Part shown: positions 1 to 54,400 of the stretch, in pieces
Numbering within the stretch: the first letter of the stretch is position 1
Layout: every line of letters begins with the position of its first letter
Assembly (NCBI GenBank): GCA_905221605.1
Contig: CAJNDS010000269.1
Coordinates: forward strand, 496,767 to 560,766
DNA length: 64,000 bases
DNA from: Symbiodinium natans
Taxonomy: Eukaryota; Sar; Dinophyceae; Suessiales; Symbiodiniaceae
Direction of reading: 5' to 3'
Position numbers and translations under genes: made by a program
The notes under the pieces: model-generated
Databases searched by the model: none
Told to the model about the DNA's origin: nothing
The model's input: only the letters and a program-made list of their open reading frames with translations

Positions 1-1022
1 GTCTCCTTGGTATTCTTTAAGGGTTTAGGGTTTAGGGTGCAGGGTTTATGGTTTAGGGTTTAGGAAGCTCTTTGGTATTCTTTAAGCCTTAGTAGCTGAA
101 GGAGTACACTTTACGCCTTTTTGGGTTACGAGAATCCCCTATAGAACTGCAAGTGTACTTTTTTTGGGGGCTCATGAACTCAGCAACTAAGGAGCTGCAA
201 TTGCTTATATTCTTTGGCTTAGTTCTGGGAATCTGTAAGCTCTTAAGTCGGGTTTAGAGTTTAGTCTTGGTCTACTTCACGTAGATACCGAGGGGAAAGT
301 TTAAAGCAGGCTCGTTTTCTCTGGCTGCAACGGGGAGTATGGCCCCTAAACCCTCAGCCCTACACCCTAAACGGGTTCAGGGTTTAGGGTTTAGGGTTTG
401 GGGTTTAGGGTGTAGGGTTCAGGGTGTACGGAAGCCCCAAGTCACAGGATACACGCTGCACCTGCTCTACCGCTCATGCCAGCTGGCGAAGGTGAAGGTG
501 CCAGGACCCTACGAACCTCCGGTTAGGGTTTAGGGTTTAGGGCTTAGGGTTTAGGGTTTAGGGTTTAGGGTTTAGGGTTTAGTAGGGAATTCGGGAGGCA
601 CACTAGTTCCCGATGTTCCTTCGGCTGAGGGTTTTTAGGCTTCTGGTTTAGTGTTTAGGGTTGCGGGCTTGGCAAAACAGAGCCGCTGCGGAACGTTAAG
701 CAGGGGAGGCCCCGAAATGTCGGGTTCGTTGTATAACGATAAGGAAAAACGTCGGGGAATGGCTTTCGCGACTATTTGCTGGCCCAGGTGGCTTAGGCGT
801 CTTTAGGGCCTCTTGTATAGGGTTTAGGGTTTAGGGTTTAGGGTTTAGGGCTGCTTGGGGTTCTTCGGGATCCTCAGGGTTCTCACAGGGCCTTATAGGC
901 CGATGTAGATGCGGATGCAGGGCTTCCAGAGGATGCAACCCTAAACCCTAAACCCTAAACCCTAAACCCTAAACCCTAAACCCTAAACCCTAAACCCAGG
1001 GTGTCTGAGTCATGCGCCAAGG
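1..1022. other. Intergenic or intronic islands between telomeric arrays; one TIR element
   Basis: TTTAGGG arrays at 1-64, 370-425, 522-582 and 820-850, and a CCCTAAA array at 939-995, separate islands of unique sequence. Apart from the TIR element at 88-191, no exon could be supported. The open frame at 339-533 is mostly translated repeat. Confidence 0.6.
88..191. mobile_element. MITE-like TIR element, family 1, copy A (no telomeric insert)
   Basis: The element starts CTTAGTAGCTGA and ends TCAGCAACTAAG, imperfect inverted repeats of each other. The interior has a second inverted pair, GTACACTTT and GTGTAC, around a central CCCCTATAGAACTG segment. Three related copies occur at 12,507, 46,954 and 55,719. 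No transposase is present, so it would be non-autonomous. No clear target duplication flanks this copy. Confidence 0.75.
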
Positions 1023-4000: not shown

Positions 4001-7000
4001 TCGCGATTCCGTGCTACATGGACGTCCTAAACGGTCACACCTTTGTGGAGCACATGGGAGCCTTGTCTGCGTGTCGGCTAAACCCTGCACCCTCAACCCT
4101 GCTCCCCTAATCCCCCAACAACCATCTGCTCCCCTAGTATAGGGGCCTGATTAATGAGAACAAGGTTCTGGCGGGCGATTCTGCTCGAATTTATAGGGAC
4201 TCTAAGGGAGTAGTCTTGGTAACTTCTCCGAGCCCTGTATTAATCCCCCCCAGAACCCTCAAGGTTTGGGCTTGGGGCCCCCTTGGAACCCTAAAACCCG
4301 AAAGCCTTGAAACCACCCAAAGCCTTAGACCCAAATTGGGGGTTTCCGAAATTAGGGGTACCTTCTTGGGGGTCCTTCTTATAGGGGGATCCTACTGTTT
4401 AGGGGGTCTATGCCAAGATAACCCTAAACCCGAAACCCGAAACCCTGAACCCTAAGCGTCTTTTTTAAGGGGCCCCCCTGTTTTCGCAAACTTCCAAATG
4501 CCATACCCCAGCCAAGGCCAGAAGCCAGGGGCGCTTCTCTACTACACCTTCGATCTGCCGAAGCTGATCAAGGCCACCCTAAACCCTAAACCCTAAACCC
4601 TAAACCCTAAACCCTAAACCCTAAACCCTAAACCCTAAACCCTAAACCCTAAACCCTAAACCCTAAACATGATGGTTGTGATGAACCTGTGTGCTTAATC
4701 TGGGTCTTCTGATCCTGAAGCCCTGCTTTAAACTAGGCCGTACCCCCCCCCCCCCCCCCCCGCACCTATTTGGGGGAATTCCCACATGTGCAATATAGAG
4801 GTCGGAATAATTGCGAATAATATTCCTTTATGATCCTTAGCAATGGCTCCCAACACCCTATTCTAATTATCAAGGCCCGTATATGTACGGTACTCAAAGT
4901 CAAGCAGGTGCTTGTGGCCTTTGAGGATGTCCGACTTCAGCTTAGTTCTGGCCTTGACTCCCTGACCTCCCGCCACCGTCAACCCTCAACTCCCTAAACC
5001 CTGAACTCCCTAAACAAGACTCACTAAAAACCCTAAACCCCAAATCCTAAAGCCTAAACCCACCAACGAGAGATTCTCGGCTTCCCTCTGCGCAGGTGCT
5101 GCCAGTGGTCCTCCTCGCATACTCCACACAGGCCTCCTCTCCAATCATCCTGGCGCCTCGCACAATTTTAGGGTTTAAGGTTGGCGTTTAGGGTGTAGGG
5201 CTTGGGGTTTAGAGTTTGGGGTTTAGGGTTTAGGGTTTAGGCTTCTGGCAAACCCTCCGAGCCGAGATCCCCAAGCTGCCCCGACATGTGGTACCTGAGA
5301 CAACATGGATCGTGCAAAAGACCAAACAGGACATTATGGGGTTTAGGGTTTAGGGTTTAGGGCTAGGGTTTCGGGTCTCATATGTCCAGTGTGTGTGGAA
5401 GTCCGGAGGCGCATGTGGCTGCCAGCAGGCAGCAGTTCTGATACGCGAACGGGGGCTTTCCTAAATTCGCTGTTTTTGTTGGGGCACCCTAAACCCTAAA
5501 CCCTAAACCCTAAACCCTAAACCCTAAACCCTAAACCCTAAACCCTAAACCCTAAATTGCTTGTAAGCCGATCCTAAGTACTAGGACGCGTCCACCCACA
5601 CGGGGAATTGGAGATCCTGTGGGCTGGGATGCAAAGGATTCGGTTTCGGCGGCGGGTGCTGTAACTTCAAAAGAACCCACAAGAGAAACGCGCTCCTAAA
5701 CCCTAACCCTAAACCCTGAACCCTTGAAGCCTCTGAATCTTCGAGGGTTTAGGGGTTCATGGGTTCAGGGTCGAGGGCCGTGAACCCAACCGAGGCATCT
5801 ATGCAGGACAACTCGTGGGAAAATGTTCGGCGAGTCACCGGGTTGGTGTACTTCCTTCTCTACGCTCCGCGCCCGCAAATTCCAAGAGACCCGAAGCCCT
5901 AAACTTCCCTACGCCCTAATCCCTAGACCCCCAAATGCTGAAACCCTGAACCCCCAAACCCTTATGCCCTAACCCCCAAACCCCCAAAGCCCAAAACCCT
6001 AAACCCTAAACCCCAAACCCCAAACCCTAAACCCTAAACCCTAAACCCTAAGACCCTAAACCCTAAACCCTCAACCCTAAACCAATGGGCAGGGAGCCAG
6101 CCCGAAGCCGGGCCAGAGCTCCAGATGTCGAGTGCTGTGTGGATGGGGCGCTTCTTAGGGCATTGGGGTTCAGGGTTTAGGGTTTAGGGTGTAAGGGTTT
6201 AAGGATGTTCGAACTTTAGGGCGTATATTCCCCAAAACCCTAAACCCGAAACCAACATAGGTTTTCGGGTGTGTGGTTTAGTGCTTCGGGCCCTTTCAAT
6301 CATTGCGTTTCAGGGCCAGCCGAATTTTTAGTAGGGAGTACTGCAAATACATTTGCGCTGCAATGCTGTGATGGAGTTTGCAGGGGGCCTGTAAGATCAT
6401 CCCCCCCCCCCCCCCTCCCTCCCTGCGCCCACTCCACTTGCTAAACCCTCAGCCCTAAGCCCTAAACCCTAAACCCCAAACCCTAAACCCTAAACCTAAA
6501 CCTTACACCCTAAATCCCCCCGCCCCCCCCCCCGCCAAAGCACCTGCAGCAGAATCTCAGACGTGAGCTCCTTCGGCCCTGGCAGCTGTGAAGTCCCTAA
6601 GGCGATCTCGGCAATCTTCGGGCACTCTGTGTATCTGCGATACTCCGATCTTTGCACCAACAGCGCGCTGACGACGATAGGCGCCCCAACGCTGTTCAGA
6701 GCCAGCGGTTAGGACTGTAGGGGTTGAGGGTTTGCTCAGATGTTGGGGCTTTCCCCGGAATGGATTGGCACCCGTGTTTGGGGGTCGCTCATGTTTGGGA
6801 AATGCCCAGATGTTGGGGGTAGTTTTACACCCTAAGCCCCAAAACCCTAAATTCCCCCAAAAGGCCCATGTGGGAGGTTATCTAAATTATGGACCTTCTT
6901 GGGGTGTCCCACTTTGACACGGAGCCTTTTATTTCCTTTCTACGTAGAAATATACACATACATAGATACATGTATATGTATATATATATATATGTTCGTT

Positions 7001-20800: not shown

Positions 20801-23800
20801 GGGTTTAGGCCTAAACTCAAGGGAACAGTCCACTTCTAAATACTTATTCAGTTTCATGACGTTCGGGTTGGGTCCGAGAGTCAAAGGAATGGTAGGGGGG
20901 TCGGGGTTTCAGGTCACAGGTCAGGGTCTCAGGTCACAGGTCAGGGTCAGGAACCAGGAGAGCCCAGGGAGGGGGCCAGCAGGGCCAAAGACCCCAGCCA
21001 CCTGCAGGCACAGGGGGGTTTGGGGTATTTTCATTATTATAAGGGACCAGTACTGGTCCCGAGAAAAACGTGTTCCGGTACCGGGCCCATCGTGGGCGCT
21101 ACCGACCCCCATGCTGTGGGAGGCGGGCGAGCGACCTGGGTCGGCTTGCGCCATCGAGGTTTAGGGTTTGGGGTTTAGGGCTAGGGCTACAGTTTAGGGT
21201 GTAGGGTTTGGGGTATCGCGACTATGCGTGCACGGGGGCTTTTAAGAACCTGAATGATCACACTTATGGCCCACTCTTACCTAGGGTGCCGTAACCTGTA
21301 GGACGCCCATGACCTACTTCTTCCCTCGCTGTAGGGTTAGACCCAGATGAAACAAAAAAGGGCACCCGTTGGGAGCAACCCGGTTCCCTACCACTCCACA
21401 CTACTGGTTTAAGGTTTAGGGTTCAGGGCTTTACTGTACGACCCTAAACCCCGAACCCCAAACCCTCAACCGATCTAGACCCCAAACCAGGGGGTTGTGG
21501 CTTTTGAGCACTCCTGCTCTCGTAGGTCGGCTCTTGGGCCATGTTTTTTGTTTCCTGCACTGGGATCATGTTGAGCAACATTTTTCATAAACCCTAGAAA
21601 CCCTCGAGCCCTGTAATTCCTAGAAGCCCTCGAAACCCTAGAAGCCCGAAACCCAAACTCAAAACCCTAAACCCTAAACCCTACACCCTAAACCCCAAAC
21701 CCTAAACCCCAAACCTGAAGCCCTCGAAACCCTAGAAGCCCGAAACCCTAAACCCCAAACCCTAAACCCCTGAAAACCTAAACCCCTAAACCCCCTAAAT
21801 CGAAACCCTAAACCCTAAACCTTAAACCCTGAAGCCCTAAACCCCAAACCCCCTAAACCCTTAAACCCGAAATCCTAAACCCCAAGCCCCCTAAACCCAA
21901 AATCCTAAACCCTAAGCCCTATAAACCCTAAACCCTACACCCTACACCCTACACCCTAAACCCTAAACCCTAAACCCTAAACCCTAAACCCTAAACCCTA
22001 AACCCTAAACCCTAAACCCTAGCCCTAAACCCAAAACACCCTGAACCCACCTCCTAAACCTCTAAACCCTCGAGTCGATGTGATGACTTTCCAGGGCCTT
22101 CCTGCTCGTGGGCGCCCCTGGGGCAGCCAGGGCCCCTGGCAGAGGTTTTAGGGTTTAGGGTTTAGGGTTTGGGGTTGAGGGTTTGGGGTTTCGGGTTTAG
22201 GGTTTCGGGTTTAGGGTTTGGGGTTTCAGGTTTAGGGTTTGGGGTTTAGGGTTTAGGGTTTAGGGTCTGGGGTGTAGCCTTCCTCAAATTATATCAGGGC
22301 AACTAGCATGCCCCGACAATTTTGAGAACTCCTTGGTTGCATGGACGTTGGTTCTGCCGCGGCCTTAAGTATTGGCCTGCTCTCCCGTCTCGAAGGGTAT
22401 TTTGCATGTATGAGTATGTATGCATATGCATGTATCGATCTGGCGAGTTCTCAAGATGTCGAAGGGACCATATTTTTGAGAGAAGTGACCATCTATAAAT
22501 ATAAATAAATAAATAAATATATATATATATATATATACGTATATATACCCTAAAGCCTAAACCCTATAAACCCTATATATGTGTATGTATATTGCTCGAG
22601 GTTTAACAAAAGGATGCCTCGCTTCCCGAAACGAACACAAAGTCAACCGGTGAGGTTGTTGTGCTGGCGGCCGTTGGGCGCGAGGCCTCTGAGTGTCTGG
22701 AAACCCTGAGCCCTATTAGGGTTTAGGGTTTAGGGTTTAGGGTTTATAGACCCTAAACCCTCAACCCTAAACCTTAAACCTCAAAACCTAAACCTGAAAC
22801 TTGGGTATAGCGTTGCAATGCCCATGTCGAGCGGTTGAGTTGAGGCGGTTTAGAGTTCCCTAACGTAAGCCCTAAACGTAAACCTTTAGGTTACCCGGCC
22901 CTGCGTGAGAAAGGGTATCAGGTCCTTGGGATTCGAACCTGTTAGGCTTCTTGGGCTTTTTGGAGGGTTTCAGGTACTTGAAGCTGGAATCACAGGTGAC
23001 CAAACATAAAGTAGGGTTTACAATAGGGGTTAGGCCCGGCTGCGGGGCAGGTTGCAGCCAGAGAGTCCAGGACGGCAGTACCGAAGATGTCCCCAGCCTG
23101 ACCACAATGTCCGTAGGAAACAACCAAAACACACCTAGGGTTTAGGGGTTTAGGGGTAAGGGTTTAGGCGTTAGGGGTTTAGGGGTTTCGGGGTTTTGGG
23201 TTTAGGGTTTAGGGTTTAGGGTTGAGGGTTTAGGGCTAAAATCAGAGTCCGTAGCTCGCCAGGCCTTAGATCGGATGCAGATGCTGGAGAACACGGTGCT
23301 GCTCCATCTTATCAGGCGCTTGGCCTGCGCTAGAAAGGTCAGAATGCAGAGAAATGCGGAACCCAAGGGTTTTGGTCTTGGAGCTTTGAAGGATTTTGAA
23401 GGTCTATTCTTGGCTTGGGAGACGGAGGGGCTTGGCCTACTTGGAGAGCAGGCCCTACCCAGGGTGAGGATATTTCTCACCCTAAGCCCTAAACCCCAAA
23501 CCCTAAACCCTAAGTCCAACGCACCGCAGCCAACATGGGCCTCGTGAGACAGGGTCTCAGGTAGGGACAAAGCCTTAAATTCAGGCACGGGTAGCACTGG
23601 GGTCTTTGGGGCACCGCGCTTCTCCCCAAGACCCTAAACCCTAAACCCTAAACCCTAAACCCTAAACCCTAAACCCTAAACCCTAAACCCTAAACCCTGA
23701 ACCCTGAACCCTGAACCCTGAACCCTGAACCCTGAACCCTGAACCCTGAACCCTGAACCCTGGACCCTGAACCCTGAACCCTGAACCCTGAACCCTGAAC

Positions 23801-32465: not shown

Positions 32466-35459
32466 ATGCTACTGCCAAAGCGGGGTGAGAACCCTAAACC
32501 CTAAGCCCTAAGCCCTAAGCCCTAAACCCTAAACCCTAAACCCTAAACCCTAAACCCTAAACCCTAAACCCTAAACCCTAAACCCCAAACCAGCCAAGGC
32601 GGGGTGAGAACAAGGTGGTCTACTCAGTGAAGAACACCTTCCTTCACATAGATGAGCCCGAAGAGCAGGCCCTCAGGGGCCTTCAACCAAGCCCTAGACT
32701 GGGTTTGGGGTTTAGGGTTTAGGGTTTGGGGTTTGGGGTTTAGGGTTTAGGGTTTAGGGTTTGGGGTTTGGGTTTTAGGGTTTAGGGTTTGGGGTTTAGG
32801 GTTTGGAGTTTAGCGTGTCGGGTTTGGGGCTTGGGGCTTAGGGTTTAGGGGGGTTAAACCATACCACCAGCAATCCGCAAACCCCCAAGCCCCTCCGTGG
32901 GGCCTTCGGCTGGTGGTTCCTGGGGGCGGTTGGTTACGACCGTTGTCTAGGCTACTTCTAAGAAAGGGTTCAGGGTAACAAGTCGTGTAGTTCTAGTCTG
33001 AGTTGGGGGTACAGTTTGTAGAATTAGTGCTGTCATAGCCCTGTAGTCTAGGCAACTTAGAACCCCCCCTTCTAAGTACCCTTGAACCTCCACGAGGCTT
33101 TAGGTTTGTGGGCCATGGGAGGGCTCAGAGATGGCCCAGATCGAAACAGGGGGGTTTAGGGTTTTGGGTTTTGGGTTTTGCGTGGTTTTAGAGGGGTTTT
33201 AGTGCACATTGGTTTGTTAGAGAATGGGCTTTAGGCTTGTTTGGGGTTTATGGTTGTTTCTGGGGCGTCATGGGTTTATAGTCAATTTTTGAGGGTTCAG
33301 GACTTCCAGTTCATTAGGGTTTAAAGAGGGCTTGCAGGGTTTATTAGGGTCTCTCGGGTTTGTCAAGGTGTTTTCTCTTTTTTTTGCCGGGCTTGCTGGG
33401 TTGATAATGTTTAAGTTTATAAGGCTTATAGCGCTTGTGGGGCTTGTGGGGTAGGTTTAAAGGGTTCATTAGGGCAGAGTTTATAGGCATTCTCCTTGTT
33501 TGCTCGCTGTCGTTGTCTTATTGTGCTTGGAGATTCATGGGCACTTGTAAAGTGGGGTTCGAAGTACGTACCCCGAATAAGGTTATAGCCACTTAACATA
33601 GTCTCCCTACATATAAGCCGGCTTAGAATCAATTGAACCTTCCAGTAGGGTTGGGGTTTAACCCTATACTATGAGGTCAGGCTTGATAGGTGGTGCACGA
33701 TGGTTTTGTTGGTGATTTTTTTTGGGTTTTCCATGTTGCTGAGGGTTTTTAAGGAGTTTATTGACATATGTAACCCCCCCCCAAAAAACGGTGATCCTGA
33801 CTGTTCCTTAAACCCTCATCGAACCCTAAACCCCCTAACCCCTAAACCCCTAAACCCTAAACCCTGAACCCTAAACCCTAAATTCTAAACCCTAAACCCT
33901 AAACCCTAAACCCTGACCCTAAACCCTAAACCCTGACCTTTCCCACTTTCGAGCCGGCGCAGGAGGAGGACCCGCAGCAGGCGTCTGCAGGGCCATGGGC
34001 CTCTGAGGCCATGGGGTTTGGAGTTTAGGGTTATGGCTTAGGGTTTGGGGTTTGGGGTTTAGGGCTTAGGGTTTAGGGTTTAGGATTTCGGGCTTGGGGT
34101 TTTGGGGTCTGAACCCTGAGCTTGGGATGTTCCCCCCTATGCCTAACAGTCCGTAACGAGGATTATGGTATATTATAGCAGGGAGTACTATAATCTCTAT
34201 TCAGGACTGATAGTATAAGGGGGAACATCCCAACCTGAACCCTAAATACTAAACCCGATATTTGGCGGGTTGAGGGCTTAGATTTTGGGGTTTCGGGGTT
34301 TAGGGTGGGGGTCTGGGAGGGGGGGGGTGGTTGAGGGCTTGAGGGCCACAGATTTTGGGGTTTCGGGGGTGTAGGGGGTCTGGGGGGCATTGGGCGTATG
34401 GGCTTGCGGCCTTTGTCGGCTAACAGGGCTTTGCGGCCATGTGAGGCAGAGCCGAATCGGGGAGGCCTGAATAAGGGAACCCCAGAAGAAGCGGTCGAAA
34501 TCCAGCCTCTGAAGCCTTTTCCCAACCCACTAGCCCTAAACCCTAAACCTCTTGAATGCTATCAGGCATCTTTGAGTACGAACCAAGGCATAGCTCGCCC
34601 ATATACTCACGGCCCCCCCAAGTTGCGTTCTGAAGCGCGCCAGCCGACACCCTCGACCTTCATCTCGGGTTTAGGGTGTAGGGTACCCTAAGCCCTAAAC
34701 CCTAAACCCCAAACCCTAAACCCTGAACCCTAAAGCCTTAAACCCGGGGTGCCAACCCTGCACAGGAAGGGCTCGGCCCGCCACTCCAGTTCCTGCCCAA
34801 GGACTTCGGCGGGGTTCCGGGACTGGGGTTTCGGGTTTAGGGTCTAGGGCTTCGGGTTTACTTGGGGTTTAGGGTTTAGGGTTTGGGGTTTAGTGCTTGG
34901 GGTGGGCTTGGGGTTTAGGGTTTACTCCGACCACCGGCGAGGATATCGAGCTCACTGAGCTGCAAGCGTTCCGCGCCGACTACATGAAGTTTCGCGCCGG
35001 GCAGGCACGGACCTTTGGGACGAAAAGGGTTTTGGGTTTGGGGTTTAGGGTTCGGGGTTTAGGGTTTAGGGTTTAGGGGGACAATATGGGGTGTAATGGA
35101 CTTAGGGGTACGATAGGAATATGATGGGGGTTTATAAGGTTCAGAGTTCAGATACACCCCAGATTACTTTCTGCGGGGATGGGATTCTCCACGTTATCGG
35201 CCCTTCTCGGGTAGCCGAAATAAAGCGCTCCGTATTATGAAAGGAACCCCAAAAACGGGACCTAGGTTATGGAACCCTCCAAAATAGGCCCTTCATATAC
35301 CCCAAAAGAGTGTAACTAATCCTGAACCCCTAATTATTTCGGAAACCATTTCGGGCACATGGGCCATAAGCACTTTTGGGGATCATGTCTCCAACAAGCT
35401 GAACACCTGCAGGCTACCGGTGCGCGTGGAGAGATCCAAGATGTTCCGGAGGCGAGGAG
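32466..35459 (+). CDS. Unidentified gene; N-terminal exon split by a telomeric array
   Basis: A likely ATG at 32,466 opens MLLPKRGEN, then a telomeric array intervenes. After it the coding sequence repeats and continues as RGENKVVYSVKNTFLHI then DEPEEQALRGLQPSPR, to about 32,697. Further islands are 33939-34015 (TFEPAQEEDPQQASAGPW), 34924-35028 (IELTELQAFRADYMKFRAGQ then ARTFGTKR) and 35413-35459 (LPVRVERSKMFRRR). An S-V-K-N-T-F start and an acidic EPAQEED motif recur in dinoflagellate proteins of unknown or RNA-related function, from memory. No catalytic domain is seen. Exon grouping is inferred; the end was not found. Confidence 0.5.
32474..32610 (+). repeat. 18-bp coding duplication flanking a telomeric array (candidate GC-AG intron)
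   Basis: GCCAAAGCGGGGTGAGAA at 32,474-32,491 and GCCAAGGCGGGGTGAGAA at 32,593-32,610 differ at one base. Between them is CCCTAAA/CCCTAAG repeat. An intron from 32,480 (GCGGGG) to 32,598 (CCAAG, then GC) would be GC-AG and join the frame as MLLPKRGENKVVYSVKNTF. Confidence 0.8.
33000..33930. other. Presumed intron: degenerate TTTAGGG/TTATAGGG variants and a diverged family 5 element
   Basis: The stretch 33,180-33,480 holds loosely spaced GGGTTTA-like words rather than tight arrays. CTTGGAGATTCATGGGCACT at 33,526 marks a diverged family 5 element. CCCTAAA resumes at 33,795-33,935. Confidence 0.5.
33939..34015 (+). CDS. Exon with EPAQEED motif, copy 1
   Basis: Reads TFEPAQEEDPQQASAGPW then ASEAMG. 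The DNA shares CCGGCGCAGGAGGAGGAC with the exon at 48,338, so the two genes have related exons. Confidence 0.55.
34122..34233. mobile_element. Family 2 TIR element, copy 2 (112 bp)
   Basis: Starts TTGGGATGTTCCCCCCTATG and ends GTATAAGGGGGAACATCCCAA-type sequence, near-perfect inverted ends. CCTGAGC precedes it and CCTGAAC follows, possibly a 7-bp target duplication with one mismatch. Confidence 0.85.
34924..35028 (+). CDS. Exon (IELTELQAFRADYMKF)
   Basis: Long open island between arrays, reading TPTTGEDIELTELQAFRADY then MKFRAGQARTFGTKR. Clearly protein-like and not repeat-derived. Family unknown. Confidence 0.6.
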
Positions 35460-38400
35460 AGGGTTTAGGGTTTAGGGTTTAGGGTTCAGGGTTCAGGGTT
35501 TAGGGTTTAGGGTTTAGGGTTTAGGGTTTAGGGTTTAGGGTTTAGGGTTAGGGTTGTTTAGGGTTTAGGGTTCAGGGTTCAGGCCTCTTCCCTACAAAGC
35601 CCTAGCCCTAGAAGTCCTATAAACCCCAGTAAACCCTATTAAACCCCTATAGACCCTATAAGCCTCACATAAAGCGCTATAAAAAGCACCCTACAAGCCC
35701 CATCTGTTGCCCCAAACCCTAAACCCTAAACCCTAAACCCTAAACCCTAAACCCCAAACCCTAAACCCTAAACCCTAAACCCTAAACCCACTGCGAAAGG
35801 TGCCTCTGGCCTCCGAGTCCACCGTCGGAGCGCTCGATCTCCAGCAGTCAGGGTGGGGAACTCCGCTGATGATGATAGGGGTTTAGGGTTTAGGGTTTGG
35901 GGTTTCGGGTTTAGGGTCTAGGGTTTAGGGTTTGGGGTTTCGGGTTTAGGGTTAGGGTTTAGGGGTACCTTAATGGGTCCTTCGCATAAGGGAAGCCTAC
36001 CATTTGGGAGTCTATGGTAGGGGCTCATTATTTTTTTTAACCCCCAATTCCAAAGCTTATGCATGTTTATGCGCATGTGTATTCACATGAGTATGTAGAT
36101 GAGGATGTGTACGTATATGTATATGTACATGCACAATATACTATCCAAAATATTATATATATATATATAAATATACGTACAGTCATGTATAACATACGCT
36201 GGTAATTACACACATATCCAGTGTGTGCTGGGTGCCGAACGACGACTTCACATGTCTTGCCATGGCATGGCACTTGTTTGAATGGCAGGCAGTATCCTGT
36301 CAACGCTTTTGCCGGACAACAGATGTCCACGCCGAAGCCTTGGACTCCAAAGACTGCCTGGAAGACTACCCCGAAACCCTAAACCCTAAACCCTAACCTG
36401 GCAGCCTTGCAACATCTTGCAACACACCTATGGGTAGTTGGAACACGGCGCGTCGACGCTCGTGGGTTGATCTGCAGGTTTCGGGGTTTGGAGCATGATT
36501 ACCATTCAACCAGAGCATCCACGCGCACATGATGATTACTTTCGTGTTACCAGTGCGTGCGAATGGCCAGACCATCCATGCCCGAACGATGATTGCGTTC
36601 GTGTTTGGGCACCAAGGTCCCGCAGGATTTCTTAAATCTGTTTGCCCGGCTGTGCTGAAAAATCCATGTCCCACAGCAATACAGCCAACCCCTCAACCCA
36701 ACTGCTGACCCTAAAATCCTGAAGCCTAAACCATACTGAAACTCGAGCCCGTTACTAAGTCACCCAAACCCCAAGCTCAAACATGAGCCGTGCAAGTACA
36801 CATCTTGTGCAAAATCAAAGGTAGATCTCCCCACACCCTAAACCCGAAACCCTAAACCCTAAACCCTAAACCCTAAACCCTAAACCACCCAAAAAACCAA
36901 ACAGCACCCGGATTCGTCGGCTGCTTCTTGGCATGGAGGGAAGCCGCAAGCCGAGGCCAGGCAGTTGACGTCTCCTCCTCGGAGTCCTCCGAGCTTCATT
37001 CCTCAAGGGCTTGGGGTTTAGGGTTTAGGGTGTAGGGTTTAGGGTTTAGGGTTTGGGGTTTGGGGTTTGGGGTTTAGGGTAGGGCTTATAAACGGTGTAT
37101 GCTTCGGTGATAAGGCTTATGGTTGGTTTCTTATAGGGTTTATTATAGGAGGAATTATCGGAAGTATTATTGGGCTTCGGGTTTATCGTAGGCTTAATTG
37201 AATGGTTTATTGTAAGGTTTATCATAGGGTTTATCATAGTGTTTGGGGTTCATTATAGGGCTTATGATAGGGCTTGTGATAGGCTTCACAATAGGGTTTA
37301 TGACAGGGTTCATTTTGGGGGTTTATTATAGGGTTTTTCTGGGTTGAAATAGGGATCATAGGGCATAGAGGGTATTTTGGGTTTTCGGTTTAGGGTTTAT
37401 CAAGCCCAGAGGGTGGATAGAGTGGAAGGTTTAGGCTTTAGAGCTTCTGTACGGTCCTCACGCTGGGCTGAGGTGGGAACAAGGCAGGCGAGCTTGAGTA
37501 GCTTGGCCTCGTAGGTTTCGAAGTACCCAGACTCCTTGGGAGGATGCAAAAAGTGGAGCCCCCCAAATCGTACCCTACACTACGATTGGGTCATTCTTAG
37601 GAGCCCTTACGGGGATCTTTTTGGGGCCCAAGTAGTACCCTATTTACTACTATTGGTTTCATTCTTAGGAACCCTTAGAGGGGATCCTGCTTTCCGGATC
37701 CTCCCAGGGGGTCTGGGTAGTGATTGAATGTACGGAGGTGCGCCAGAAGTCAGGTCGTGTGTACAGTGGGCAGTCGGCAGAGCGGCCTTCCCAGTTTACA
37801 GTTTACAGTTTACAGTTTAGGGTTTAGGGTTTGTCCAAGAAGTCTGAAGCTCTGCTAGGAGGTCCAAGTGCATCGTTAGAGCATGAATGTCTGTTAATCA
37901 TGTCAACAGTATTAACTCGTACATAAATAGTGCTAGCATGGTTATTATGCGATGTTTTTGGCTGTTGCTTTTTTACATTGCCATTCACCTTATGTTAAGA
38001 ATACTAGTATGATTCGCCTTATCAAGTTAACAGCGTGCTGCGCGTGGCTGCCAAGCCCGGTCAGACTTTTGGCAAGACCGGAGGTTCTTCTAGAACACTT
38101 GATGGGCTTCTCTGACTTTGAAAGAGAATTCTCCGGTAGCGAAGGACCCAGTCTCACCCCCTGCCTCAATACACGCAGTGTTGCAGGGTAGCGGTCCCCG
38201 ACGCGGTAGGATCCCCTTCCAAAAAGGACCCCAATAAGGGACCCCTAATTTCGGAAACCCCTTAACCCTAAACCCTAAACCCGAAGCCCTAAGCCCTAAA
38301 CCCTAAGCCCTGAGCCCTAAACCCTAAACCCTAAACCCTCAACCCTAAACCCTAAACCCTAAACTACAGAGGCCTTCTAATGCCTTCGTGGGTCGGCGGA

Positions 38401-41600: not shown

Positions 41601-44600
41601 GCGGGTGTTTAGAAGTACCAGAAAAAAAGCTTGCAAGTTATGACCTACGTATAAACACGCATGAACCTCCATGTATGGCCTGGGTCTGAGAGGACGGTGA
41701 TGGGACCTTTCAGTTCGATGTTGAAGTTTCTTTGGTGAGTGAAGTAATTAACAAAGGCCACTTGGATGATGCTCAGTGGATGCACTCAGCTAGTACCATT
41801 CAAAATCCCCCCNNNNNNNNNNNNNNNNNNNNNNNNNNNNNNNNNNNNNNNNNNNNNNNNNNNNNNNNNNNNNNNNNNNNNNNNNNNNNNNNNNNNNNNN
41901 NNNNNNNNNNNNCCCCCCCCCCCCCCCCCCCCAACACTTCAACACCCATGAGGATCCTTCTGGCGGATCCGAAAAACGAATCCTGCCACCTCGCCACGGT
42001 CATCGCCATCCTCTTCGCAAGCAGCGTGCTGGGCCTGAAGCAGTATGGGGTGAGGACCAGCGTCAGCGCACCACTCCTCATCATCCTGTTCCTTAGGCCT
42101 CCAAGGGTGTGTACAGGGGTTAGTTTTTTAAGGGGTAGTGGGAGTCAGTCAGGGTGTATGTCGCTTGTTTGGTGATTGTGTGATTGTTGATCTGCTTCCG
42201 TTGAAATATGGGTGAGTGTAGAACTTCGGGAATCACAGAAAGTAAGGCGTTATGCGAGCTTCTGCTGTCGATCCCCATGAGGACTGCAGCCTCCACATTT
42301 CTTCCACCCTTAACCCTCCCTCAACCCCTCAACCCCTCAACCCCTCAACCCCTCAACCCCTCAACCCCTCAACCCCTCAACCCCTCAACCCCTCAACCCC
42401 TCCACCCCTCAACCCCTCAACCCCTCAACCCCTCAACCCCTCAACCCCTCAACCCCTCAACCCCTCAACCCCTCAACCCCTCAACCCCTCAACCCTAACC
42501 CCCCCCCCCCCCCCAACCGAGGCTACTGGCCACCTTCTACACCTGGGCTGGCGTTGCTGGCCACTCCCTCCCAGACCTGGCCGAGCAGGCCCCCAAAAGC
42601 CCCGAAGCCCTGTGACCCTTGAGGGTTTAGGGTTTGGGGTTTAGGGTTTGGGGTTTAGGGTTTGGGGTTTGGGGTTTAGGGTTTGGGGTTTGGGGTTTAG
42701 GGTTTAGGGTTTGGGGTTTGGGGTTTAGGGTTTAAAAAAGGGGTTTAGGGTTTAGGGTTTCGGGTTATAGCCCTAAACCCTAGAAGCCCTAAACCTTGGG
42801 ATGTTCCCCCTTACACTAACAGTCCTTACTAGGGAGAATAGTACCCCCCCCCCCCCCCCTATACTCTCTATAGTATGAGGGGGAACATCCCAACCTAAAC
42901 CCCTAAACTCCCCGAGCTAACCCCCCACATGCCAAGGAACTCCCGAAGAACTTCCAAAGAGCTCCCTAGAAACTCCCCCAACCTCCCTCAGAAAGCCCTG
43001 AAAAGCATCCCCCAAGCCCTAAACCCTAAACCCTAAACCCCAAACCCCAAACCCCAAACCCCAAACCCCAAACCCCAAACCCCAAACCCCAAAACCCCAA
43101 ACCCCCCCCTAACCCCCCCCCCTAACCCCCCCCAAACAAAATCGCACCCAAGAGCTCCTCCCATCAACCCAGGGCTGGCTCTCGCCTTCCAGCGCCAACT
43201 CCCAGTCGCCCATCGGCATCTTCTTCACAGACTGGCCTGGGACCCAAGAATGAGCCTAAACCCTATAAACCCTATAAACCCTATAAACCCTATAAACACT
43301 ATAAACCCTATAAACCCTATAAACCCTAGAACGTAAACCCGGGCTTGGGCCGGGGGGGGTTAGGGTTCAGGCGAGGTGGGGCTTTGAGAAGCCAACATGG
43401 GTAGGGCGTTCCGGAAGACAACCCTACGCCCGGCTCAACAGAGCCTCCTCCATCTTTCTCAGCCTTTGCACCCAACTGGGTGCGCGGTTGACCTTCAGGT
43501 TTGAAGTTGACTACATGGCCACGCTTCCTGGCTTCGAGTCTTTGCTGCTGCTTCTTGGTGGCTAAGTTTTCCCATGTTTTTTTTTTTTTTTTGTCGGGGG
43601 TTCCGGGGTTCCCTATTATAAGAGCTATAAGAGTAGCCCTAAACCCTAAACCCTAAACCCTAAACCCTAAACCCTAAACCCTAAACCCTAAACCCTAAAC
43701 CCTAAACCCTAAACCCTAAACCAAAACCCCAAAAAGGGTACCCCTGAAACGTAATTCCTGACCCAGCCGAAGGCTTCTGGTAGCCACGATCATGCGTGCT
43801 CTAACAGTGATTGCCATCGAGTCTGCTCTGGCAGACGAGCCCTACAGCGTGGACGCAGACTCTTAGAGAGCATGGGGAGTGGAGTTTAGGGCTTAGGGTT
43901 TAGGGTGTAGGGTTTCGGATTTAGGGTTTTGGGTTTAGGGTTTGTGGCATAAAGACCAACTCTGATGGCCTCAAAACTCTAAGGCAACCCTCAATCCCGC
44001 GCTCTCTCTCTCCCTCTCTCTCTGTCTCTCTCTCGCGCTCTCTCTCTCCCTCTTTTTCTCTCTCTCCCCTAAACCCAAACCCCAAAGCCTTGGCAAGCCA
44101 GTGCCATGCTTTGCGTTGGAAGGAGCGCGCTGCAGATTTTCCCTAGCTTCCTGCCAGATGTAGGTGGTTCTCTACATGAAGGTCCTTTTTTGGGGTCCTA
44201 TAGACCCCCCCCTAAACCCTAAACCCTAAACCCAAAAGGCAACTACCCAAAGCGCAGGAAATGTCCTGGCTCGGCCTCGCCACGGGCATCGGGGGCGTGC
44301 TCGGCGGGGTTCCCATGAACGCGACCTCGGCCATGACGGACCTGAACAAGGAGGGCGTGAAGCTCGGACCTAGAGTCGGCGCCTGTTTTTAGGGTTGAGG
44401 GTTTAGGGTTTGGCGTTTAGGGTTTAGGGTTTATAGGGGATTTTTTTGAAGAAGTTAATTATAAAGAAACCCCTCCTTGTAAGAAGAAAATGGGTTTAGG
44501 GTTTAGGGGTTCGGGCTCCCTTGTATATGAAACACCTACTTGTAAGAAGCATAATTAGAAGGGTGCCTCTCTTTGTCTTCTTCCTGGGCTACCCTGGAGC

Positions 44601-47208
44601 CTAGGAAGGGGGACAGCCTAACTGCGCGTTTGACCGCGATCATCATCACGGCACTCCACCTGCTCATGTGGGGCTCAGGCTTTCCCCTCGTGGACTACCT
44701 CCCCCGATTCCTGCTGGGGGGGCTTCTGATGCAGATGGGGGGTGGCATGCTGCTGGACTGGGCCGTTTTGGTACTCCAGCGGCTGCAGTGGACGGGTGCC
44801 GTTGTGGTTTGGGCCATGGTGGGCATCAGCGTCTTCACTGACCCTGGGCAAGCCCTTGGGATATTTGCTTCCCTTTAGCTATTGGGATTTATTGGGTTCC
44901 GGAGGACAGTACTTAGGAACCCTAACCCCTAAACCCCAAACCCCAAACCCTAAACCCTAAACCCTGAACCCTGAACCCTGAACCCTGAACCCTAAACCCT
45001 AAACCCTAACCCCTAAACCCAAGGACATGACCCATGGCATTGTGGTTGGGCTTGTGCTGGCCCTTGGCTTTGTCAGCGTCCGCTTCACGAAGTTGGAGGT
45101 GCTGAAGTATCATGTCACGGGCATCCACTTCAGATCTGGGACATTGTGCCTTAGTGATACTTGGAAATATTTTTATGTTTTGCGCATTTCAATTCCTAAG
45201 AAACAGCTAAAATTATAGATTTCTGCTAGGGTTCCAAGTTCAGTATAGGTACTCCGATGCACAGCGAAGTATTCTGAAGAAGTACGGGGATCAGACCCAG
45301 GTGGTCGGGCTCACAGGTTTTGTTTTCGAGGGCGTGGCCATCGCCTTCGCGACGTATCTCAAAGAAGTTGTGCACAGCACGAGGGAGCTCAAGACCTTGG
45401 TGATTGACTGCGCGGCCTGCCAGGGCATGAACGACTCCGCCTGCTCACACTTCCTGAAAGTCGCGCAGATGTGCGCGTCGAAAGATGTTAGCCTGGTGTT
45501 CTGCAGCCTGAGCCCCTACGATGAGATGCTGCTGACGAGCTGGAATCTCGAACCCTATGGTTGCCAGATCATGCCCTCCGTGTCGGAGGCCTTGGACAAT
45601 GCCGAGCAAGAACCCAGGTTGGCCCCTGGAGACGTTTTTCGTATGTGCCCTCTATTGGGTCATGGCTGGTTGTCAAAATTATGATCCCTTTTTGGGATTC
45701 CCTACATATTCGGTGCCGTATGATAGTAAGGAGCCAAAGAGGGACCGCAATCTTGACAGCCACCCTTTTTGGGTTTAAAGAGGATGGCATTATAGTGGTG
45801 TCTCGGAATTATCTTTCGGAGGGTGTTTAAGGGCCGTCCGAGGAAACTCTGCGGCACTGGTTGCAGCCAGTGACGCCCACTCTTCGAAGCAGCGGGCATG
45901 AGCCCAAAGTCACCGCATTGGAGAAATGGCTGGGCAAAGGGGTGGCCAAGGAGCTGCTCGGGATTGGAGAATTCTACGTCTTCGACACCGGCGAGGTGAT
46001 AAGTGGTCAGGATGAGATTGTCGATGCCATTATGATTGCTGTGCCAGGGTTCTCCGACGTGCAGATAGAGGTCCAGACAGGGACCCAGAACAAACCCGCG
46101 CGGCTTCTGCGGACGTCCCACGGAGCAGTTTGTCCTGCAGAGGCCCTCATCGGCAGCCACTGCCGCGGTCGATGGGTAGCCCTCGACGAGTCGGTGGTTT
46201 TCATGATCAGACCCGTGCAGGCTCTGAAGAGCACTTCGAAGCGGCACGCGTTCGCCACACTGTCTTCCATTGCGCTGCACCAGCAGATGATGCAGACGGA
46301 CCAGCTCTCGGCCATGTACACCCTCAGCAAGGGGGGCGGCTGGCGAGGCGTCACCTTCGACGCCAGCACCAACAACCGGCCCTGCAAGGCCCTCGAGGGA
46401 TTCGGCCCGCGCCTTCGGAGCAGCCACGCCAGGCGCAAGGAGTTCGCGCGGGTGGGCAGCCGGAACATGACGGGCTCGGTGGACGTGGGGAAGCTGAGCT
46501 CCCCGAAGACGCAGAGGCCGAGGGCACCAACCAACGCCACCAGCGTGGACGAGGAGATCCCGGTGGCTTGGGGATTTTTAAATCATTTCTAATTTTGGGG
46601 CACTTTAATCATTTAATTCCTATAAGCTCTTAAAAAAATTTAATTCCTAAGCACTTTAACGTTCTCATTCCTAAGAAACAGCTACAAAACACACATAGTT
46701 TCTGCCACAGGGTTCTTAAGTTCCCCAGAGGTGGCTGCGGTCTTGGACTTCCAGCGCTTCGTGTCCTCCTCCGGGCGCCCGAGCCTGGGCTCCGTGGATG
46801 CCGACGAGGCCATTTAGACCTTAAACCCTAAACCCTAAACCCTAACTAAACCCTAAACCCTTCGTGGATGCCGACGAGGCCATCGAGACGAGCCTCTCCG
46901 ACAACGTGGTCTTCAACCGCTACTCCGTGGGCTCCAACTTGCACCAGCTGACACTTAGTGGCTGAGTGAGAACCACTTTGCACCCTAAACCTTATAAACC
47001 CTAAACCCTAAATCCTATAAACCCTAAACCCTAAACCCTAAGCTTTTTGGGGATACGAGTATCCCCTGTTTTGAACTTGCAAGTGTACACCTTTTGCTTT
47101 TTTTTTTTTGGTTGGGGGGGGGGGCCTTGATAAACGCAGTAGCCAAGGAAGGGCATCACCGCCTTGGCGGAGCTCGAGTTTGAGGAGGAGGAGCCGGACC
47201 AGCCCTGA
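38546..47208 (+). CDS. SulP (SLC26-like) anion transporter with STAS and cNMP-binding-like domains
   Basis: At least 13 exons in order give a full SulP architecture. Tentative N-terminal exons are at 38546-38637 and 39699-39776. Membrane exons: 40537-40940, 41279-41417, 41953-42092, 42523-42612, 43499-43556, 43766-43863, 44258-44385, 44605-44842, 45024-45137. STAS exon: 45244-45633. C-terminal exons: 45843-46562, 46731-46808, 46879-46953, 47148-47208, ending in TGA. Hallmarks are LRYLPYPVVAGFLAMIGA, MSWLGLATGIGGVLGGVPM and YLPRFLLGGLLMQMGG. Known members move sulfate, bicarbonate or other anions across membranes; the substrate here is unknown. Introns carry arrays and TIR elements. The 100-N gap at 41,813 lies inside an intron. 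The exact N-terminus is unsure. Confidence 0.85.
39699..39776 (+). CDS. Possible SulP N-terminal exon
   Basis: Reads SNESTVLSLHHSRTQEDN then VLRKASAG between two CCCTAAA arrays. It could be the cytosolic N-terminus of the transporter. Confidence 0.4.
40537..40940 (+). CDS. SulP exon: first membrane helices
   Basis: Follows CCCTCTCCAG. Reads FPMAKEPEGNWGSRLLTGFL, LTASPITLISLASCISYAHL and, later, ITFTLFLQ, with at least three hydrophobic segments. The last part, VGLHVDALVLGLLFF, is another helix. The right edge is uncertain by a base because the downstream exon needs phase 2. Confidence 0.8.
41279..41417 (+). CDS. SulP exon: PYPVVAGFLAMIGA helix
   Basis: Follows ACGTGCAG. Reads QDKVLGKLRVMAALRYLPYP then VVAGFLAMIGAAVIKGAFKH. 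The P-x-P-V-V-A-G-F motif is diagnostic of SulP transporters. Confidence 0.85.
41572..41670. mobile_element. Family 5 TIR element inside a SulP intron
   Basis: Starts CCTACCTGGAGGTTCATGGG and ends GCATGAACCTCCATG, imperfect inverted ends matching family 5. Confidence 0.72.
41807..41932. other. Assembly gap (100 N) inside a poly-C tract
   Basis: Six C, then 100 N at 41,813-41,912, then 20 C. The standard length suggests an unsized gap caused by homopolymer. Frames across it are meaningless. Confidence 0.97.
41953..42092 (+). CDS. SulP exon (LATVIAILFASSVLGLK)
   Basis: Follows ACCCATGAG. Reads ILLADPKNESCHLATVIAIL then FASSVLGLKQYGVRTSVSAP and LLIILFL, helix-loop-helix as in SulP middle segments. 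Confidence 0.75.
42310..42500. repeat. CAACCCCT 8-bp array
   Basis: About 23 near-perfect CAACCCCT units with one CACCCCT, followed by poly-C. It differs from neighbouring CCCTAAA arrays and lies in a SulP intron. Threonine/proline/glutamine-rich frames across it are artefacts. Confidence 0.95.
42523..42612 (+). CDS. SulP exon (LLATFYTWAGVAGHSLPDL)
   Basis: Immediately after the poly-C. Reads LLATFYTWAGVAGHSLPDLA then EQAPKSPEAL before a stop, so the intron begins near the end. Fits a SulP helix and loop. Confidence 0.5.
42620..42770. repeat. TTTAGGG/TTTGGGG mixed array
   Basis: Alternating GGTTTAGG and GGTTTGGG units in an intron. Confidence 0.93.
42796..42893. mobile_element. Family 2 TIR element, copy 3 (98 bp), in a SulP intron
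   Basis: Starts TTGGGATGTTCCCCCTTACA and ends GAGGGGGAACATCCCAA. CTAAACC precedes it and CCTAAAC follows, so it sits in telomeric-like sequence. A poly-C run fills the centre. Confidence 0.87.
43255..43330. repeat. CCCTATAAA 9-bp variant array
   Basis: Eight units of CCCTATAAA with one CACTATAAA, a 9-bp relative of the telomere unit, in a SulP intron. Confidence 0.93.
43499..43556 (+). CDS. SulP exon (tentative)
   Basis: Follows ACCTTCAG. Reads FEVDYMATLPGFESLLLLLG before a stop. Placement fits the loop and helix between the previous and next exons. Confidence 0.5.
43766..43863 (+). CDS. SulP exon (LTVIAIESALADEPYSVDAD)
   Basis: Follows CCTGACCCAG. Reads RLLVATIMRALTVIAIESAL then ADEPYSVDADS, a helix followed by the acidic loop that precedes the E-x-x-x-x-G motif in SulP proteins. 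Confidence 0.78.
43998..44067. repeat. CT microsatellite
   Basis: About 70 bp of CT-rich dinucleotide repeat in a SulP intron, near the next acceptor. Confidence 0.93.
44258..44385 (+). CDS. SulP exon: LATGIGGVLGGVPM motif
   Basis: Follows AAAGCGCAG. Reads EMSWLGLATGIGGVLGGVPM then NATSAMTDLNKEGVKLGPR. This is the conserved SulP stretch with G-L-x-N/T and G-G-x-P elements. Confidence 0.85.
44605..44842 (+). CDS. SulP exon: LPRFLLGGLL helices
   Basis: Reads GDSLTARLTAIIITALHLLM, then YLPRFLLGGLLMQMGGGMLL and a further helix AVVVWAMVGISVFTD. The P-R-x-L-L-G-G motif is typical of late SulP helices. Begins after GAGCCTAG. Confidence 0.85.
45024..45137 (+). CDS. SulP exon: last helix
   Basis: Follows ACCCAAG. 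Reads DMTHGIVVGLVLALGFVSVR then FTKLEVLKYHVTGIHFRS, the final helix and the linker to the STAS domain. Confidence 0.82.
45150..45243. repeat. Intron-resident repeat, family 9, copy 1
   Basis: GATACTTGGAAATATTTTTA, then TTCAATTCCTAAGAAACAGC, then GCTAGGGTTCCAAGTTCAG, which is the acceptor. It occupies most of the SulP intron before the STAS exon. Similar sequence is at 46,570-46,730 and 53,751-53,847, both in introns. Confidence 0.75.
45244..45633 (+). CDS. SulP exon: STAS domain
   Basis: Reads YRYSDAQRSILKKYGDQTQV, VGLTGFVFEGVAIAFATYL, LKTLVIDCAACQGMNDSAC and ALDNAEQEPRLAPGD. The L-V-I-D-C then M-N-D-S-A pattern is the STAS core (beta strand, then the D-S helix start). STAS domains regulate and traffic SulP transporters. 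Ends in GAC followed by GTTTTT. Confidence 0.88.
45843..46562 (+). CDS. SulP exon: cytosolic cNMP-binding-like domain
   Basis: Follows GTCCGAG. Begins ETLRHWLQPVTPTLRSSGHE. It includes GIGEFYVFDTGEVISGQDE, ALIGSHCRGRWVALDESVVF and a helix LSSIALHQQMMQTDQL. The FDTGEVI, RWVALDESVVF and terminal-helix layout resembles cyclic-nucleotide-binding folds fused to SulP proteins in fungi and protists. The phosphate-binding G-E-x-x-x-R-A signature is not seen, so nucleotide binding is doubtful. Ends EEIP before a GTGGCT intron start. Confidence 0.75.
46563..46730 (+). other. GT-AG intron with 7-bp boundary duplication and family 9 repeat
   Basis: Opens GTGGCTTGGGG and closes TTCCCCAGAG. GGTGGCT occurs at 46,562-46,568 and at 46,730-46,736. 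Removal joins EEIP to VAAVLDFQRF in frame. The interior is the family 9 repeat (CTAAGAAACAGCTACAAAAC); no telomeric array. Confidence 0.75.
46731..46953 (+). CDS. SulP C-terminal exons split by a 70-nt telomeric intron
   Basis: First part, 46731-46808, reads VAAVLDFQRFVSSSGRPSL then GSVDADE. Second part, 46879-46953, reads AIETSLSDNVVFNRYSVGSN then LHQL. Without splicing the frame meets TAG at 46,815. Removing 46,809-46,878 restores it. Confidence 0.8.
46793..46883 (+). repeat. Exact 21-bp exon duplication around a telomeric insert (GC-AG mini-intron)
   Basis: The 21 bp at 46,793-46,813 (CGTGGATGCCGACG and seven more bases) recur exactly at 46,863-46,883. Between them lie 49 bp built of TTAAACCC and CCCTAAACC units. 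A 70-nt intron 46,809-46,878 would start GCCATT and end GACGAG, with GCC on the exon side: AG|GC at both ends. Confidence 0.92.
46954..47147. mobile_element. Family 1 TIR element, copy C, acting as a SulP intron and carrying a telomeric insert
   Basis: Starts CTTAGTGGCTGAGTGAGAAC directly after the exon ending CACCAGCTG, and ends GCAGTAGCCAAG directly before the exon GAAGGGCATC. So element and intron nearly coincide. Variant CCCTAAA repeats at 46,983-47,041 interrupt it between ACTTTGCAC and GCTTTTTGGGGATACG, which are contiguous in copy B apart from two or three bases. Confidence 0.82.
47148..47208 (+). CDS. SulP last exon
   Basis: Reads KGITALAELEFEEEEPDQP and then TGA at 47,206-47,208. 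A short acidic tail ends the protein. The frame agrees with the preceding exon if the family 1 element is removed. Confidence 0.72.
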
Positions 47209-51434: not shown

Positions 51435-54400
51435 CATCTTCAGTCGCATGCACAGGCAGAGTCCTGCAGAAGGGCAACCTTAAGCCCTATACCCTAAAGC
51501 TTAAGCCCTGTACCCTAAACCTTAAACCCCACACCCTAAACCTTAAACCTCAAAACCCTAAATGGGTTTTAGCCGGGCCCGGAGAGTGTTATGCTTTTCA
51601 GTGCTTTCAAGGGTTCCATGGCCTGGGTCCTCAAGAGGGTAGGGGTGATCGCTCCGACGTTTCCCTGCATACCTCTGCCCCCCCCCCCCCCCAACAACCC
51701 CTAAACCCTAAACCCTAAACCCCAAACCCTAAAACCTCAAACCCTCCCACGTTCCTTCCTTTTCATGGCAGGAAGACTGCATGAACCCGGCCTTCTCTCG
51801 TTGGCATCCAAGGCAGGTCACTCGTCATGGGCAGGTGATCCTGGACCTTAGGGTTTAGGGTTTAGGGTTTAGGGTTTGTGGTCTTTTTGGGGTCCTTCTT
51901 GAATAGTGCCGTACAATAAAGGAGACCCAAAAAGGGGCCCAACTTAGTGAACTAACTACCCATCTGTACACCCTGTAAGGCCTTAAACACACACACGCAC
52001 ACAAACCTTTAAACCCCAAACCGTAAACCCTACACCCTACACCCTAAACCCTAAACCCTAAACCCTAAGCCAAACCCTAAGCCCTAAGCCAAACCCTAAG
52101 CCCTAAGCCAAACCCTAAGCCCTAAGCCCTTTCAACCCTAAGCAAAGCTACCTCGACTGCCAGGAAGAACGTCATGTACACATGCCGCGGACCCAGGTTT
52201 GCGAAAGCCTTTGCCCGCAGAATGGCGCACCTCAATGTGTGATGATCTGGGAAGTGTCCCAAAACACGGGGCACCCTTCTCGGGGTTCCTATAGTAAGGA
52301 GAATCGCATGTCTTGGGGCACCTTGAACCCTAAACCCTAAACCCTAAACGTCCCTAACCCTAAACCCTAAACCCTCAACCCTCAACCCTAAACCCTAAAC
52401 CCTAAACCCTCTTCTAGGAGAATCTTCACAAGGCACGGAGTCGGTCGCTGAGAACGGAAAGATCGATGCTTGGAGCGCCGGGGCCCCAGAAGTGCGCTGA
52501 AAGAGCAGAGGGCAGAGCCCTCCACACCGGTTAGGGTTTAGGGTTTAGGGTTTAGGGTTTAGGGTTTAGGGTTTAGGGTTTAGGGTTTAGGGTTTAGGGT
52601 TTAGGGTGTTGCGGTGTTAGGGTGTTAGGGTGTTAGGGTTTAGGGTTTAGGGTTACTATTTGGGATGTTCCCCCTTTATTATACTAACAGTCCTTAGTAG
52701 GGATCATACTAGGGGGCACTATAATCTCTATTAAGGGCTGTTAGTATGAGGGGGAAACATCCCAACTTACTCTTCGTACTGTTCTTGCTTGTATATCTGT
52801 GAGACTATTAGTATTACTGCCATTACTACTGTTTTTATTGGATAAAAACGATTGTTACACTACGATGACATATTGCTAGCATCTTACTAGCAAGTTTTAT
52901 TGCTGTCACTAGAATTTACCATCAGTACTACTGTGTACTCTCGGTACTATGCTTAATCCTCTTGCTATTATTACTCTTATGACACTTACTACAATCATTA
53001 GGTTCATTGATATTATTTCCGTTATTACAATTGTTACGATTATTGCGGCTTGTCTTTCATGAATAGTAATACTTTCATCATTGGTATGACGATTATCACA
53101 AATTCTGTTATTGCTGTTACTCCGATTGTTGCTGTTTACTTTTGCCATTTCACCGTTATAGCTTTTTCCTATCTTGACCTTCATTACTGGTGTTACCGAT
53201 AAGACGTCTGACTCTTATTGCTACTATTCTGAGTACTGCTATTATTGTTACTGTTGCCGTCGTAATTGTTATGACTACCATTGCTACCATGACCATGATG
53301 ACCACCATTGTGACTTCTGCAACCATTGCCTTTATTCGTATGATTCCTTGGATGATCTCGGTTGTTGCTGTCATTGCTACGGTTCTAAACCCTAAACCCT
53401 AAACCCTTGGTATAACTATTGCAACTACTCTGACTTTTGTTGCTATTGGCTTTTGTGGGCCGAGCATCGATCGCCAGGTTGACCCGAAGACCGGGCAGCT
53501 TACCAACATCGGGTCCTTCGACGTGCGGGGCATACCTTAGGGCCTAGGGTTTTGAAGTTTATGTCGGGTTTAGGGTTCAAGTTTATAGGTTTAAAGGGTT
53601 TAGGGTTTAAGGTTTAGGGTTTAGGGTTTGGGGTTTAGGGCTCGCTTGCAAAGCTGTGGGCGTGGCCGCGGCGCAGCACAGACGCCTTCCCTCAGGCTGG
53701 CGGCACTTCCACCTGCTACATCACGCTGGACAAGGCTCTCGGTCTCCTCAGGGATACCTGGAAATTATTTTTAAGTTTTTGGGTACTTTAATTCCTGAGA
53801 AACAGCTAAAATTACAATTTTCGCTAGGGTTCCAAGTTCAGTGTAGTCCCTGGCACTTGTCGGAAACCACCCTTAAACCCTTTTTAGGGCTTGGGGTCCC
53901 TTATAATTTAACCCCTTCATTTAGCGTTTGGGGTCCCTTATCGGCACCTTGTTCTCCCTTAAGCCCTACATAGACCCTGTGAATCCAAAGTTGGCCGCTG
54001 ACAAAAGGAGTGGTTTGGGAGACTGTCGACCTAGCATCATGGGTTCCCCTACTACCCCCCTTTGTACTACCCCCCTGGTCAAGGTTATTAAGTCGGGAAC
54101 CTGGAGGGAGTAGTATAGAGGGGGGTAGTGGTGAAATCCATGAAGGCCTGTGAGAACATGTTGGTGGTCAACTACTGGAACGACGCTGGGCTCCGTCTGG
54201 CACGGTTCGGCGGTCCAATGGTTTTCAAGTGTCTTCGGATATTTTGGGCCCCAAACTAACCCTAAACCCTAAACACTGTACCCTATGCGCTATACCCTGT
54301 AGACCCTAAGTCTCCAGGGCTTGGGTTCCCCAGTTCAGAACTTCCAGGCTACCTGGTAGCTGAGTAGTACCCTTTGCAGCTCTTTATTGTCATTTTGGGG

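Follow-up and report, generated by a model that had tools for sequence, protein, structure and literature searches.

The DNA analysed here, referred to as the window, is a 64-kb stretch of the Symbiodinium natans genome (GenBank assembly GCA_905221605.1, contig CAJNDS010000269.1). On its plus strand, near the 3' end of a gene that probably encodes a SulP/STAS transporter, the coding sequence CGTGGATGCCGACGAGGCCAT (21 bp) occurs in two exact copies at positions 46793–46813 and 46863–46883, which are separated by 49 nt of CCCTAAA-type sequence (46814–46862), 82% of it telomere-like. A search for the 21-mer at up to three mismatches returned two places in the window, both exact, and no match in 100 shuffles, which bears out the first-pass annotation of 21 identical coding bases on each side of a 49-bp insert. 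The insert, hereafter the SulP insert, occupies a non-terminal site well inside a contig of 1.03 Mb. When mismatches are allowed, the duplication extends to 29 bp (46791–46819 and 46861–46889; 26/29 identical), leaving 41 nt between the copies (46820–46860). The mismatched pairs are 46792/46862, 46814/46884 and 46815/46885; all three differences fall in the predicted-intronic halves of the duplication and none in the exonic halves. The insert had been called newborn on the grounds that its duplication was free of mismatches. This holds for the 21-bp core and fails for the 29-bp extension; because 3 of 29 positions have changed, 'newborn' is too strong a word and the insert looks young rather than fresh.

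Without splicing, the reading frame ends in ...SVDADEAI*, with TAG at 46814–46816 (by count), confirming that straight read-through meets a stop. Removal of one repeat plus the insert (70 nt, 46809–46878) restores the frame as had been predicted, the protein then ending in ...SVDADEAIETSLSDNVVFNRYSVGSNLHQLTLSG*. Splice pairs were enumerated using GT, GC or GA donors in 46740–46861 and AG acceptors in 46800–46904, at least 40 nt apart. The 21-bp segment holds a single AG, in line with the earlier derivation of a GC-AG intron from this dinucleotide, but the choice is less constrained than it implied, as 23 donor/acceptor pairs lead in frame to the same stop; the pair 46809–46878 is the only one that restores the whole protein. 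This pair has AG|GC at both ends, with the donor AG|GC after 46808 in the first copy and the acceptor ACGAG|GCC after 46878 in the second. In the predicted frame, codons ending in G or C make up 24/26 of the coding exon before the insert (46731–46808, its own start being tentative) and 25/28 of the last coding exon (46879–46965, with TGA at 46963–46965), compared with 13/28 and 10/27 in the other two frames after the insert. Since the third-position bias is kept, the exon downstream of the insert still looks coding. According to a review of the genome of S. minutum (the name then in use), GC donors occur in that related genome almost as often as GT donors and the acceptor AG is often followed by G (PMC4083563), which makes the AG|GC and AG|G sites plausible. 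We consider it more probable than not that 46809–46878 is spliced as a GC-AG intron. More speculatively, the CCCTAAA repeat on the sense strand might aid splicing through its pyrimidine runs and its CTAAC/CTAAA branch-like motifs.

The identity of the host gene was deduced from open frames on the plus strand upstream of the insert. One of these (45211–45684) contains a STAS domain (PF01740, E-value 9.3e-8, above its cut-off) and is assigned to the gene from its position and frame. Another (44555–44878), also a presumed part of the gene, has a weak match to Sulfate_transp (PF00916, E-value 0.024, below its cut-off). The upstream open frame nearest the insert is placed at 45831–46562, with exon borders in part conjectural; this last large open frame, taken as 45831–46592, had no Pfam match at an E-value of 0.1 or better. 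A whole-genome search with PF00916 at an E-value of 0.001 gave 15 matches that did not include the host gene, and for this reason, together with the sub-threshold PF00916 match, its SulP/STAS identity is only probable. A scaffold gap of 100 N, comprising all N of the window, lies inside the gene at 41813–41912.

Searches for an empty or paralogous copy of the locus returned the locus itself. In a protein search of the genome, in which 16 candidates were scored, each of the three matches was at the SulP locus, and the best 40 of 236 candidates in a DNA search comprised this locus and otherwise telomeric stretches only. Viral contigs yielded no relative, and no telomeric introns were present in the three pieces of SulP paralogues inspected. 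Overlapping-exon searches for further coding cases, based on PF00916 (15 matches) and PF00063 (28 matches), yielded too few exons.

Telomeric repeats are abundant throughout the assembly (759,417,921 bases in 2,543 contigs). The 21-mer (CCCTAAA)x3 had 1,184,385 overlapping matches in forward and 1,185,204 in reverse orientation (approximately 2.4 million), compared with 33 and 41 for a reversed control. Their arrangement was studied in a 264-kb sample consisting of the window and 20 stretches of 10 kb (L012–L031) picked by contig number. Telomere-like 9-mers, close variants included, cover 11.3% of this sample, which contains 472 telomeric tracts in both orientations. To our knowledge, such a density exceeds any interstitial telomeric content.

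Both flanks of each telomeric tract of at least 20 nt were aligned, and repeats were required to be flush with the tract. At a score of at least 16, flush repeats were found at 5 of 403 tracts and at none of 7,967 mispaired flanks. Satellite-like stretches accounted for an excess in the first random-position control, and with these excluded the numbers were 5/383 tracts against 10/30,000 random placements (0.13 expected). The five tracts passing were the SulP insert, L017 1230–1285, window 32490–32591, L012 5878–5901 and window 21645–21715. The last of these was dropped as a further example, being itself telomere-like, as was the L012 case (5828–5955, 47-bp duplication), the repeat of which sits in a multi-copy element of approximately 105 bp. 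By eye, this element (L012 5771–5874) has similar inverted ends (CTTAC...GTAAG); among the best 40 of 1,759 candidates, several of its copies run on into telomeric repeats, and the order of element, telomeric repeat and half-element in L012 seems common to one other place.

Three cases were thus retained: the SulP insert (29 bp), L017 (23 bp) and a second telomeric tract of the window at 32474–32611 on the plus strand (19 bp, 18/19 identical). Only telomere-like sequence was seen between the copies in all three. For L017 there were 82 other matches, all at query positions 86–181 (best 40 of 518 candidates), and for the 32474 tract 88, all at query positions 103–224 (best 40 of 612 candidates), in both instances within the telomeric core and its edges; no second copy of either pair of flanks was found among the places scored. 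By hand calculation, three cases against 0.13 expected correspond to a Poisson P of ~3e-4, and the two without SulP to a P of ~0.008. A third tract of the window with a flush duplication, at 3–86 on the plus strand (19 bp, 18/19 identical), lies at the window edge and hence outside the flush test. A weaker case occupies another non-coding stretch of the host gene (44466–44549, plus strand), with a 21-bp duplication (19/21 identical) around a partly telomeric spacer of 42 nt. Since two other tracts carry flush duplications of 19–23 bp, with flanks that have no further copy among the places scored, the SulP insert seems to belong to a class of telomeric insertions marked by long target duplications. 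Elsewhere in the window (37591–37677), a 19-bp duplication (18/19) surrounds 49 nt of non-telomeric filler, so repair-like scars are not solely telomeric.

The duplication, the telomere-like insert and the frame arithmetic are observed, as are the coding bias that remains and the few other duplicated telomeric tracts. From these we infer the break and the order of events, where the repeats came from, and the splicing, as follows. A staggered break would have occurred in the last coding exon of the probable SulP/STAS gene and a short telomeric tract been inserted there, with fill-in of the overhangs duplicating approximately 29 bp of coding sequence. Extension of the 3' end by telomerase would be the preferred source of the repeats because in SulP, in L017 and in the window-edge case the repeat, read along the TTTAGGG strand, starts immediately at the duplication (a small sample of five junctions read by eye). 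The duplicated AGGC would then have provided the 5' splice site AG|GC from the first copy and the 3' splice site AG|G from the second, and 46809–46878 would most likely be spliced out as a GC-AG intron, leaving the protein unchanged. Much of this had been proposed in the first-pass annotation; its insertion with target duplication gains from the similar telomeric tracts elsewhere, and its duplicate-derived splice sites from the use of the AG|GC type in a related genome. That a telomeric tract was inserted with a target duplication is highly probable; the complete sequence of staggered break, duplicated AGGC and GC-AG splicing is, on balance, the most credible explanation, held with somewhat less assurance than the splicing itself. 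A broader extrapolation, which we regard as speculative and rather doubtful, is that such insertions form a genome-wide class with long target duplications that would turn into spliceosomal introns when they land in exons at AGGC, AGGT or AGGA, both splice sites being copied from the exon.

A number of results weigh against the preferred reading. Before satellite exclusion, random placements gave 19/8,000 flush repeats of score at least 16, or 0.96 per 403 tracts, and the satellite-like stretches to be excluded were chosen by hand after that first control. Telomeric spacers were present in 4 of 14 two-copy local duplications against a background of 11% (P 0.064, not significant), the copy filter having removed the 32474 tract and L012. 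Nineteen telomere-rich loci screened for flush repeats of score at least 9.5 gave one match, L039, itself telomere-like, and most telomeric tracts have no readable duplication; older tracts may have lost theirs. The all-intronic mismatch pattern comprises three events only, with a chance of 1 in 8 by hand calculation. Finally, the 26 residues past the TAG lie outside the matched domains, and a shorter protein might be tolerated.

This last point bears on the possibility that the insertion is real but unspliced, in which case the gene would end at TAG 46814–46816, shortening the protein by 26 residues, and the stretch downstream would be a decaying former exon. Read-through does stop at once, and the tail may be dispensable given that 45831–46592 matched no Pfam family. 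Against this, the coding bias of the downstream frame remains strong and its stop intact, and the exonic halves of the duplication are free of the three changes. We regard this possibility as less likely than splicing. Splicing at another pair is improbable. The GT-AG pair 46794–46878 (85 nt), for example, has a canonical donor and stays in frame, but costs five residues (VDADE) whose codons are kept by the AG|GC choice, and the related genome employs GC donors at almost the frequency of GT (PMC4083563).

Two further explanations concern the origin of the structure. Insertion of a telomere-tailed transposon or of retrotransposed telomeric RNA by target priming, instead of break repair, would be compatible with splicing; duplications of 19–29 bp could come from such machinery, and the L012 case is a multi-copy element ending beside telomeric repeats. 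We nonetheless think it rather unlikely, as only telomere-like sequence separates the copies in SulP, L017 and the 32474 tract and the lengths of their duplications are unequal (29, 23 and 19 bp). A duplication produced by misjoined reads is conceivable in a hybrid assembly of a repeat-rich genome, as the available part of its description characterizes S. natans (PMC8045281), yet the copies differ at three positions and similar structures occur elsewhere in the sample, making an assembly artefact very improbable. Insertion of a telomeric tract at a staggered break, followed by GC-AG splicing, remains our preferred reading.

Introner-like sequence is also present in the vicinity. Three related copies were identified in the window (45140–45260, 46575–46745 and 53730–53860), two of them in introns of the SulP gene, and the 20-base core of this sequence had 519 genome matches at up to one mismatch (258 forward, 261 reverse) compared with none for a reversed control. 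By eye, introns of SulP paralogues in L053 and L054 (approximately 555–730, minus strand) consist of inverted-repeat elements, and in L054 the GA donor would come from a duplication of GATA, in keeping with what is described for introners.

The origin of new introns without transposons is still debated and clean recent cases are few; in intron gain by tandem genomic duplication, the duplicated segment is of the AGGT type. In the SulP case the filler is recognizable, the duplication is readable and the predicted splice sites can be traced to the duplicate. With approximately 2.4 million matches to the telomeric 21-mer, the genome would allow a count of how often such scars become introns, and, were the genome-wide class real, introns would arise through telomere maintenance.

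Insertion of telomeric tracts at double-strand breaks is known from mammals, where, in the accessible text of the two studies, target duplications are given for 3/66 horse and 6/130 rodent loci, the horse paper ascribing them to staggered breaks, and agreement in register between break end and telomeric repeat is taken to point to telomerase (PMC7215372, PMC2246262). The SulP insert resembles these interstitial sequences in being a short internal tract, target duplications occurring in a few per cent of loci, and differs in that it lies in a coding exon, its duplication supplies predicted splice sites and the repeats make up about a tenth of the sample. The horse paper names the effect of intronic telomeric repeats on splicing as interesting to test. 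The first-pass annotation had considered a telomeric version of intron gain to be poorly described; the titles and abstract beginnings of the top-ranked open-licence literature contained no account of telomeric DNA giving rise to introns, whereas telomeric insertion at breaks with target duplication is already familiar from these mammalian studies.

Symbiodinium introners, as described in the accessible part of PMC9860276, share with the SulP case, as interpreted here, the genus, the creation of an intron and the co-option of a splice site from a target duplication. Those shown for S. microadriaticum combine 4-bp duplications with inverted repeats and bring along a 3' splice site of their own, whereas both SulP splice sites would come from the 29-bp duplication. 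Introner families with target duplications show lengths of 3–9 bp, with inverted repeats in 72 of 177 families (PMC9860276); no duplication in this range was found in the three retained cases (29, 23 and 19 bp). Inverted ends of the insert and predicted intron did not exceed chance, their scores being reached by 31%, 41% and 61% of 2,000 shuffles. The long duplication and the lack of inverted ends beyond shuffles are at odds with an introner transposon as the source of the SulP insert.

Intron gain by tandem genomic duplication, a route listed in PMC3296678, similarly draws both splice sites from two copies of an AGG-containing segment, but the SulP copies have unrelated telomeric DNA between them. 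In break-repair gain in Daphnia, Drosophila and Aspergillus, filler DNA flanked by direct repeats within a coding exon became an intron (PMC3296678). Direct repeats flank the predicted SulP intron as expected of this process (21 bp exact, 29 bp extended), with the differences that the filler is telomeric, the duplication exceeds the 5-bp minimum used there and the intron here is predicted. The SulP case would therefore represent a variant of repair-mediated intron gain with a telomeric filler, well supported as an insertion and moderately as an intron.

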